Assembly: GCA_009746045.1 (NCBI GenBank)
Contig: RPFO01000213.1
Span: 4,142,679 to 4,206,678, forward strand
Source of the DNA: Mesostigma viride
Lineage: Eukaryota; Streptophyta; Mesostigmatophyceae; Mesostigmatales; Mesostigmataceae
Length of the DNA: 64,000 bases
Direction of reading: 5' to 3'
Shown: in pieces, positions 41,219 through 64,000 of the stretch
Position numbering within the stretch: the first letter of the stretch is position 1
Layout of the letters: every line of letters begins with the position of its first letter
The notes under the pieces: model-generated
What the model was told of the DNA's origin: nothing
The model's database searches: none
The model's input: the letters and a program-made list of their open reading frames with translations, nothing else
Translations under genes and position numbers: made by a program

Positions 41219-41500
41219 TCAAGTGTTCTTGTTCGGACCGAATTGGCTTTGGTAGATCTCCGCCCGTTCCCGGCCCAGCACCTCGGCCATGCCCATGCTG
41301 GTCTTGCTGAAGGGGACCTCTTGGACGCTCGTCGCGTGGCCTTCCTTTGGTAGCACCTCGTCCATGCGCCCTGGTTTCGCAATGCCCGTCAGCGTGTAGT
41401 CGTTGCGGACAGCGTCAGGGACCTCCTGGGCGTACCCGAACTGGTCACGCTTGTTCACATGCTTCAAGTTATCCACGCGGAAATGGCCCTCCAGCGGGAC
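41219..41500 (-). CDS. C-terminal exon 18 of the large gene
   Basis: 94 codons including the stop, after acceptor gatgtgcacag. VPLEGHFRVDNLKHVNKRDQ, FGYAQEVPDAV, MDEVLPKEG, SMGMAEVLGRERAEI, and the end FGPNKNT. Joined in phase 0 to the EF-hand exon ending AMLG|gtgagc; without that splice the protein would stop two codons later. Low-complexity-free, tyrosine/proline-containing tail. No family recognised. Confidence 0.7.
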   Translation of the reverse strand, partial: VPLEGHFRVDNLKHVNKRDQFGYAQEVPDAVRNDYTLTGIAKPGRMDEVLPKEGHATSVQEVPFSKTSMGMAEVLGRERAEIYQSQFGPNKNT

Positions 41501-44500
41501 CTGTGCACATCCCAGATAAGCACACATAATATTGGTTGACTAAAGTAGCATTGGTTCTTTCACTTAGTATACAGGCAGAACAGCATGGGTGCCATATTGA
41601 TACAGAGCAGGGCATAATCACCTACCTGCAGAAGAACCTATTACCTGTAACAGCTTGTGTTACTAGATAGCAAAAAGTAAGCACCACCCATTTATCACCA
41701 ACGCAAACGAAGGCACTGATATCAACACAAACTGAAGCCATATTATGCGAGTTGTTCGCATTAAAGCAGAGCTAATTCTTATAAGGTAATTTGAGAACAA
41801 CGTGCGCCAATAGACCATCACCTAGTTTTCATCGGCTGTCGACTCACCCAACACAACAACCGTCTCATATCAACTCACCCAAGGGTGCTGCCATGCATCT
41901 GTCCTCTGCAATTGCCTCACCCAAAAGCATGATCAGTGTAGTCTTTCTAGAAGTCACTGGCGAATTCTCCCGTGTCTAATCATCCTCAAAAGAGCACGTT
42001 GCCATTTTCTAGCACGCTATATAGAATCATCTCTTCAATGACTATTTCCACCAGCAGTATATATTTCGTTATCTAGTATACTATGGTATACTAGATAGTA
42101 GTAGTACTACTCTTTATCAACTTACTACTAGAGAGTAGTAGTACTACTCTTTATCAACCTATTTACCTACTATTTAATTATTGACCTGCGGATCTCTTTC
42201 CTTATGGGCTCACCCCCAGCATGGCGTCCACCAGTCCCGGGTGCTTCTCGATGAGCGTCACAAACTCCTTGAACGTGAGCGTGCCCGACTTGTCCAAGTC
42301 CACATTGGTGAACTCCTCCTTGCATATCTGCGAGGCCGCACACACACAAGACAAGAAAGGGCACCTTCAATGGCCTTCTTTCTAGAGCGTGGGACACGAA
42401 TGATTCGTCCAAGTCCATGCGGCTTTCTCGTTGCATATCTGCAGTGGCACCCGCAGAAACAACGAGCGCAGAATATGACCAGACTGATGATAAAATAATA
42501 CTGATTATTAATGTCAATACTACTATATAACAACCAAACATGTGATTGTCAACACACTTGGAATGCAATGACAACCTAGGATTGGTCATTAAGGGCAGCG
42601 CTGTGCAGCGCGACCGGCCCTTGCAGGGCTAGCTTTGGGCTACGCGACCGCCACCACATCAGCATGATGGTTTGTGTGTGACTGGCTTGTGAGAAGTTTT
42701 TATGTATATACTCTACCAGCGGCACGGCGGGCGCACCTGCACAGTTACAAACTGTTACTGCGCTTACTCAGTACCCACTTTCGACATAATCCCACGGCAC
42801 AATGCTTGGCAGCACATACCTGACGCAACCGCGCCACGGCACGTACTTCACAAGTGATCAATGGTACCCATCTTATGCAACTACTTATTGGCATCTACTT
42901 AACTCATGCCGCTCTCATGCCACTCACTTTACAGAGCTCCTTCACGGCGGCGTTGCCGTTGGTGTTGCCGGCCGCGCGCAGCATGGTCAGCAGCTCGTGG
43001 AGGGTGATGGCGTTGGAGTTGTCCACATCATAGATCTGGGGGGAGGGGAGGGGGGAGGGAGCGCCCACGAAAGCATTATATGATTAGCATTACATTTTTA
43101 CTACTTTTATCATCATAGTGTTGCTATTATATGTATGCCGATACAAATGTCCACTCAAGACAGTGTCCAGAGGTCATGGAGCACTCCTGGGAGCGCTGTC
43201 GAGCCCGGTTCTGAATGAAGCACGTGGGGTGGGCCCCGTAAGTCGTGAATCACAAAGTGCCAGAAACCAGCACGCGGGGGGGTGGATGACAGGGTCGCGG
43301 GTATGGTTCTTCTGGAATGAAAGAGTCGCCATGCGTCCAGACGAGTAAAACATGGGAAGGCTGACGTATTTGTGGAATTGTTACGTGTAAATTACTATGT
43401 GGAAAGACGCAGCAGTGGTAAGCGGGCAGCCGAGCAAACATAGGCATGGATGTGGAACGAAAGCTGGCAGGATGTGCCACAGGTGGGAGGAGGAACCGAA
43501 GAGCGGTAGGGCTCCCCAAGGAAGAATTACAGCAGGATGCACGCCAACGCATTGCGTTTCCCCACCCTTGGTGATTACCCCTTGGTGCATCTTCTCACCG
43601 CTATCGGCTATCATAGCACAGCTGACACTGGGTGATCATCAGACTCTCCCTCCCCTATCAGAAATGATCCAAAATGGTTCCCCGTGCATGAGCCGTAGGA
43701 GCACCGTCAAACAGGTTTGCTGGATGTGCCGAAGAGCCAAACGCAGGCATGTGCCAGGTGGGTACAGTGAACGTGTCAATGTGCCTACTCCCTATGCATA
43801 TGCCTGTGCCTGTGAGTGTGTTTGTGTTGGTGCCTAGTCAACCACAGCATTCATCATGTGTGTCTGGCGCCTGAAACTGCCCCTGGCTTCTCACGTCGAC
43901 TGCCTGGCCACTTTGCCCCCCAGCTGGATCCATCCCACTCCGAGCAGTCTGCACCCACCCAACATAAACAGCCTCCACCTCCATCCTGCGCCCACCAACC
44001 TTGAACGCCATTTTGAGACAGTCGGTGCGCGAGCTGCACACGAGCGTGCCCAGGGAAACGAGCAGCTCCTTCCAGTCGATGGTGTTGGATTGGTCCTGGT
44101 GAGGGGTGGGGGGTGGGGGGAGTGGGGGACGGTAAAGCAATGGCTTCCGGCAGAGTCAGATAATGGGATAAAACTAACACAGCGTTTGCATCTCCTTCCG
44201 GTAGATGGTGTTGGACCAATCCTGGGGGAGGACACAGTAACACATACCAAGTGAGACGCTACTATACAAAGTGAAACACTACTATACCAGGTGAAACACT
44301 ACTATACCAAGTGAAACACTACCATACAAAGTGAAACACTACTATACAAAGTGAAACACTACTATACAAAGTGAAACACTACTATACAAAGTGAAACACT
44401 ACTATACCAAGTGAAACGCTACTATACCAGGTGAAACACTACTATACCAGGTGAAACACTACTATACCAAGTGAAACACTACCATACAAAGTGAAACACT

Positions 44501-63894: not shown

Positions 63895-63948
63895 CTGCGG
63901 GAGGGGGGCATAGACATGATTAAACATTAGCGCATTGATAGTCAAGTT

Positions 63949-64000
63949 GTTGGGCTTCATGTTGATGCGACGGCAATGCTCCACATAGGCCTGCGGGAGG
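63949..64000 (-). repeat. Exact copy of the exon 1 acceptor edge
   Basis: 52 bp identical to 63,853-63,904, spanning the first 42 bases of exon 1 and its acceptor. Cut by the window edge, so it may be longer. Confidence 0.95.

Follow-up and report, generated by a model that had tools for sequence, protein, structure and literature searches.

In three genes of the streptophyte alga Mesostigma viride, exon edges are repeatedly found copied into the intron that adjoins them. We propose that these copies probably arose by short, direct and local duplication that is blind to exon-intron junctions, with the exon edges keeping a longer record of it than the introns themselves. Four sets of observations, made in Mv00173, UPF1 and VIPP1 of one strain with exon models from the JGI proteins of Mesostigma viride, underlie this proposal: the direction of the copies, the side of the exon on which they lie, their rates by sequence class and age, and the retention of their GT/AG dinucleotides at the neutral rate. 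We consider these in turn below, beginning with the gene of the window, i.e., the whole stretch of 64,000 nucleotides that was analysed.

Exon-edge copies in Mv00173

The window (C1:4142679-4206678) ends inside a gene whose conceptual product had a single match in a homologue search, its own record, the JGI protein Mv00173-RA.2, which covers the whole query with 97% identity. Its 19 spliced exons, on the minus strand from 63894 to 41219, reproduce residues 43-739 of Mv00173-RA.2 with zero mismatches, and an upstream exon lies beyond the window at C1:4208808-4208876. The introns between the window exons end in AG in 18/18 cases and start with GT in 17/18; intron 2 starts with GC, at 61817-61818 on the minus strand. 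The initial annotation, made from the letters, had counted 18 exons, one fewer than the window holds, and had placed the donor of exon 1 (63802-63894) at a CAG 6 nt short of its position after 63802. In the exon numbers used here (1, 7, 8 and so on), the additional 50-nt exon sits between exons 7 and 8.

41219..63894, minus strand: partial gene JGI Mv00173, an EF-hand protein (EF hands by Pfam), 19 exons, running past the window end
55471-55520, minus strand: 50-nt exon overlooked in the initial annotation, taken from Mv00173-RA.2, with which exons 7 and 8 are again in frame

For each exon edge, 36 exonic nucleotides only were compared with the adjoining intron, and the best local match was scored against 200 dinucleotide-preserving shuffles of that intron, with a cut-off of p<=0.01; for the exon 1 acceptor, the intron was searched up to the window end only. 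By this test, 14/37 exon edges of Mv00173 have a copy in the adjoining intron where about 0.4 would be expected, and these edges belong to 12/19 exons (1, 2, 3, 4, 7, 8, 9, 10, 12, 14, 15 and 17). Reruns with 100 shuffles and the exon 1 acceptor omitted gave 12/36 and 13/36 edges, and at 13/37 edges the adjoining intron outscores all other introns of the gene. The edge copies in Mv00173 are thus confirmed as real. They, and the arrays of which some are part, are as follows:

63955..63990, minus strand: exon 1 acceptor copy, 36/36, at 96-bp spacing
63682..63713, minus strand: exon 1 tail copy, 32/32, ending 3 nt before the annotated donor
61987..62001, minus strand: exon 2 acceptor copy, 15/15, AG intact
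60948..61141, minus strand: three diverged copies of the exon 3 donor, at 61118-61141 (GT), 61032-61054 (GG) and 60948-60977 (GT)
60780..60800, minus strand: exon 4 acceptor copy, 19/21, with C-rich tract and AG
60056..60384, minus strand: 33-bp array starting at the exon 4 donor (TRF; exon end 60380), about ten AAAG/GT-like units
56125..56831, minus strand: exon 7 donor array, 110 bp x 6.4 (TRF), spanning the donor of exon 56787-56934
54263..54500, minus strand: exon 8 donor array, 79 bp x 3 (TRF), spanning the donor of exon 54449-54520; two decoys, exonic 36/36
53935..53952, minus strand: diverged exon 9 acceptor copy, 16/18, AG changed to AA; absent from the initial annotation
51807..51827, minus strand: diverged exon 10 acceptor copy, 17/21, AG intact, weaker (p=0.02); absent from the initial annotation
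51218..51246, minus strand: exon 10 donor copy, 24/29, GT intact
48866..48884, minus strand: diverged exon 12 acceptor copy, 17/19, AG intact, 1664 bp upstream
45352..45371, minus strand: exon 14 donor copy, 17/20, gtgagt intact
44188..44215, minus strand: exon 15 acceptor copy, 25/28, AG intact
42407..42438, minus strand: diverged exon 17 acceptor copy, 26/36, AG intact

The initial annotation had proposed that at least 11 exons carry such copies of their own edges, and the test indeed gives a significant exon-side copy for one or more edges of all 11 exons that it named. Its copies of the exon 1, 15 and 17 acceptors and of the exon 10 donor are present, as are the three of the exon 3 donor and the two of the exon 8 donor. 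Elsewhere, its proposals hold in part. The exact 32-bp copy that it assigned to the exon 1 donor matches throughout but stops short of the donor itself, the true site being further on. For the acceptors of exons 2 and 4, the copies at 61,987 and 60,778 stand, but those at 62,085 and ~60,896 look, by eye, to be derived from the nearer copy rather than from the exon. The ten copies of the exon 4 donor do correspond to the 33-bp array, but only about 4 nt of each unit are exonic, and the exon-side test there is negative (p=1.0). At exon 7, six donor copies (34/36) are found, and the acceptor-like copies reported beside them are weak (best score 11, p=0.005). Finally, of the copies given for the exon 12 acceptor, the one at 48,884 reached the cut-off and those at ~47,370 and ~47,770 were seen by eye only, and one of the two given for the exon 14 donor falls below the cut-off.

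The exon 1 acceptor array counts five copies when the exon itself is included, spaced at 96 bp, and three of these lie outside the window (extended coordinates 64086, 64182 and 64278). In the exon 7 array, five of the decoys have gtaagc like the real donor and the last has gtgggt, and two unit variants alternate along it. All six decoys carry the same two departures from the working exon, with two residues changed, so that exon and array have diverged from each other.

Two explanations of a technical or mobile origin bear on such arrays. The first, that the assembly wrongly expanded repeats, has in its favour that assemblies can get the size of near-identical arrays wrong, and such arrays occur at exons 7 and 8 and at the exon 1 acceptor. 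However, the alternation of two unit variants in the exon 7 array, and the divergence of most copies outside the arrays (25/28, 26/36, 28/33), are unlike assembly errors, and we regard an artefact as barely conceivable. The second invokes introners or other mobile elements bearing splice sites, which are known to have spread introns in eukaryotes elsewhere, going by the available part of one account (PMC9860276). Against this, what is copied is the edge of the neighbouring exon itself, and a 146-base piece from the exon 7 array, the single unit searched genome-wide, has 6 matches in the 440-Mb assembly (439.9 Mb in 2243 contigs), every one at its own locus; by this search introners were rejected, and we hold them to be very improbable.

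Direction and rates of copying in three genes

Two further genes, UPF1 and VIPP1, come from stretches of the same genome that were fetched by coordinate, and were picked for their conservation and not for repeats, though one VIPP1 echo was visible before the VIPP1 protein was fetched. For UPF1 (JGI Mv00399), 1250/1250 residues are aligned over 13 exons, and for VIPP1 (JGI Mv00295) 247/255, with the first exon (12 residues) unplaced; the two edge rows of that exon (one with p=0.005) are omitted from all pooled rate counts. UPF1 has echoes at 4/24 edges (exon 3 acceptor; exon 4, 5 and 6 donors) and VIPP1 at 4/14 with the first exon excluded, which gives a pooled 8/38 edges against an expected 1% (p=4e-9). 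One exon-end copy in the next intron of VIPP1 (L024:4886-4921) is still protein-like, with 27/36 matches and its GT changed to GA. The fetched stretches hold other candidate genes, which we take to be APC5-like and sialyltransferase-like; lacking exact exon edges, they stand outside the counts.

Across the three genes, the copies are direct at 21/74 edges as against 2/74 for the reverse complement, and a copy in the intron on the exon's other side occurs at 2/72 edges. With inverted copies at 2/74, inverted or templated copying was rejected as the main route. The youngest cases are plain tandem arrays over the junction, namely those of the exon 7 donor, the exon 8 donor, the exon 1 acceptor and the UPF1 exon 6 donor (44 bp x 2), and both kinds of boundary have been duplicated (17 donor and 10 acceptor copies in the list for the window gene and UPF1). 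Most of the diverged copies no longer give an alignment for the rest of the presumed unit on the intron side, and for these a tandem origin is inferred. These observations support direct local duplication across junctions. The initial annotation had already suggested tandem duplication of this kind, and its proposal stands insofar as the copies are direct, local and in the edge's own intron. A process aimed at the junctions is, however, unsupported by the near-identical copies, which show no excess at edges, as the rates below make clear.

At face value, the edges are not distinguished from intron sequence: with 100 shuffles over the three genes, 20/74 edges and 281/900 random intron windows have copies (p=0.51), low-complexity windows being left out of the intron classes here as in the counts by family and age and in the flank controls below. 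The intron bases beside the edges score at 10/70, and exon interiors, at 5/281, are near chance and differ sharply from exon edges (p=6e-11). The raw intron rate is inflated because each copy of an array is counted separately. With each repeat family counted once, introns have a rate of 0.113 (0.088-0.141, bootstrap over introns) as against 21/74 (28%) for edges, an excess of about 2.5-fold (binomial p=5e-5), and the edges also exceed their neighbouring intron bases (21/74 versus 10/70, Fisher p=0.045).

This excess speaks for a junction-specific process, in which exon edges or splice sites attract duplication or selection favours the copies there, for instance as alternative sites or as aids to splicing, and introns would lengthen mainly through duplication of their own splice sites. 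The age of the copies, as gauged by their score out of 36, speaks against it. At scores >=16, edges stand at 13/74 (0.176) against 0.077 for copy-weighted introns, and at >=20 at 7/74 (0.095) against 0.055; at >=24, edges (3/74, 0.041) and introns (0.049) no longer differ in that direction, and neither do they at >=28, i.e., among near-identical copies (3/74, 0.041, against 0.042). The edge excess is hence confined to older copies and rises with age, in a comparison whose young end consists of only 3 near-identical edge copies. Because the exon is held constant and one copy alone drifts, the likeness of an exon to its intronic copy should last about twice as long as that of two intronic copies to each other; blind copying therefore predicts an approximately two-fold excess at edges, and none for young copies. 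The observed 21/74 is compatible with twice the intron rate (2 x 0.113, binomial p=0.15). Taken together with the fate of the copies described in the next section, these rates make a junction-specific process unlikely, and the pattern probably appears centred on exon edges because duplications stay legible there for longer than within introns. One observation runs counter to the edge excess: only 5/74 junctions fall within TRF arrays, although these make up 31%, 18% and 42% of the intron bases in the three genes. The small number reflects in part the multiple counting, but recent arrays that cross a junction could be selected against.

According to the junction-blind reading, the introns of Mesostigma would undergo frequent short duplication that is direct and local, tandem or near-tandem, with a spacing mostly of tens to a few hundred bp, for which slippage or unequal exchange may be the source. 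Such duplication would be blind to exon boundaries. Copies arising inside exons would be cleared by purifying selection, to which the clean exon interiors are presumably due. Those crossing an edge would be tolerated, as the copy attached to the exon body would stay the working splice site. The remaining copies would become intronic decoys, lengthening the intron, and would then decay at the neutral rate.

Fate and splice competence of the decoys

Over the three genes, 31 copies were listed, 27 from the window gene and UPF1 and 4 from 6 VIPP1 edges. Setting aside the recent arrays (exons 7, 8 and the exon 1 acceptor) leaves 22 diverged copies, which include a VIPP1 exon 8 acceptor copy below significance (p=0.075) and are partly non-independent, as exon 3 gives three and UPF1 exon 3 two. 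Their exon-side identity is 482/571, a value somewhat inflated by having been taken from chosen alignments, and its square predicts 15.7 intact GT/AG dinucleotides; 16/22 are intact. The dinucleotides are hence retained at the neutral rate, and the decoys look neutral. Selection against decoys was rejected on this retention. It also bears on the suggestion in the initial annotation that selection keeps the exon-proximal site: the decoys show no visible selection, and geometry alone suffices. The working site is exon-proximal because a unit containing only part of the exon stays attached to the exon body in one of its copies.

The intron flanks of the copies present a less uniform picture. The homology of the diverged copies often stops near the junction, as might be expected if junctions were special, and this loss of intron-side homology hinted at selection for decoys. 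Relative to intron controls from the window gene and UPF1, the evidence is mixed: a decayed intron flank (score <=8) accompanies 6/7 copies with an exon-side score of 18-24, versus 46-49% of the controls, and 5/9 copies with a score of 13-18, versus 65-78%. With the controls mixed and the dinucleotides retained neutrally, selection for decoys was not clearly borne out. Neutral decay fits poorly for one copy, that of the exon 1 donor, in which the exon side is exact while the intron side has strongly diverged.

Many of the decoys would still pass for splice sites. With competence defined, by a simple weight matrix, as a score no lower than the 10th percentile of real sites, 12/20 donor and 6/10 acceptor decoys are competent, as compared with 2.6% of intronic GT and 5.0% of intronic AG. 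This richness would also be expected of the junction-specific process considered above; however, once the exon 7 and 8 arrays are removed, the competent donors fall to 4/12, with the acceptors at 6/10, and the GT/AG retention matches the neutral expectation. Competence raises the further possibility that the decoys are used, as alternative splice sites or as cassette exons derived from tandem or partial exon copies. Intact decoys are available for this, and two of the 27 usable ones, at the exon 1 acceptor (96 nt) and the exon 8 donor (81 nt), would extend the exon in frame and without a stop. But in 25/27, splicing at the decoy in place of the real site would shift the frame or bring a stop into the extended exon; moreover, the annotated JGI proteins use the proximal splice sites, and most copies seem to carry a single splice site. 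We therefore consider such use improbable. The decoys would normally be ignored by the splicing machinery, and exon definition, that is, pairing across a short exon, could explain how.

Whether a similar rate holds through the whole genome is, in our estimation, evenly balanced: between about one fifth and one third of its exon edges may be accompanied by recognisable decoys that are often splice-competent, arise without regard to junctions and decay neutrally. If so, exon edges would preserve a lasting record of duplication, and the spliceosome would have to pick routinely the copy that is attached to the exon body. Exon definition and the growth of introns could then be studied in this genome as a natural experiment, in which RNA data on intact decoys could test exon definition against local site strength. 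The constrained exon side of each duplicate also offers a measure of the turnover of intron sequence within one genome. More generally, the junction-blind reading provides a null model, in which decoys persist neither favoured nor purged and introns can grow by copying that takes no account of junctions.

Relation to known systems and other features of the window

The closest parallel is with the mirages of amphioxus, which are described, in the available parts of two reports (PMC3087553, PMC3902484), as tandem repeats lying over a 5' or 3' exon boundary. Their units range from tens to ~160 bp, many copies keep the AG/GT, splicing is reportedly undisturbed, and they are proposed as a route to new introns; PGBD5 has been likened to them, as far as the accessible text goes. 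By this description, the amphioxus mirages (PMC3087553) and the Mesostigma echoes are of the same kind: a repeat unit over an exon-intron boundary, the mark of a mirage, is found in the arrays of exons 7 and 8, the exon 1 acceptor and the UPF1 exon 6 donor. They differ from what is accessible on amphioxus in that Mesostigma is a streptophyte alga, that many edges of one gene and all three genes examined are affected, and that the copies are mostly old and diverged. Further, the Mesostigma echoes are known from genome sequence and JGI proteins, whereas the RT-PCR and length-variation data on mirages, as given in the same sources, are amphioxus data.

Human segmental-duplication genes, in the part of the report available (PMC2812944), likewise carry minisatellites over exon-intron boundaries, with altered splice patterns. 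The likeness lies in the boundary repeats; in the human genes, recent paralogs differ in these repeats, and the new introns that the repeats form are backed by transcripts, whereas the Mesostigma copies lie within existing introns. Similarly, where introns are gained through the tandem duplication of exon sequence that bears AG/GT, as presented in the accessible portion of one account (PMC2891723), splice signals are copied as here, but the new intron arises there inside an exon, whereas in Mesostigma existing introns are lengthened. Literature searches returned no report of junction duplications for Mesostigma, and the available text of the genome paper (PMC6947507), which speaks of isoform sequencing, is without mention of them. 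What is new in the present case is the lineage, the density (3/3 genes examined), the comparison of rates by copy age and the test of neutral decay. Amphioxus and human paralogs are thereby joined, as settings of junction-spanning duplication, by an early-branching streptophyte alga, in which the copies are dense enough for rates to be measured.

Some other features of the window may be recorded here. Within an intron, a strand-asymmetric CTCC-type array of 0.9 kb occupies 50013-50924, and no 2-kb bin of the window has a stronger GC skew than the one that contains it (-0.58). ORFs with a reverse-transcriptase domain (Pfam RVT_1) lie at 17105-18547, 25396-26916 and 37833-40151 (minus strand) and are apparently retrotransposon copies, the first two having 1.2 kb in common at 99.7% identity. 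A 2.6-kb direct duplication links 22732-25320 and 26504-29097 at 99.8% identity; the ORF at 24218-25099 within it has MORN repeats and is matched by an ORF of equal length at 27995-28876.
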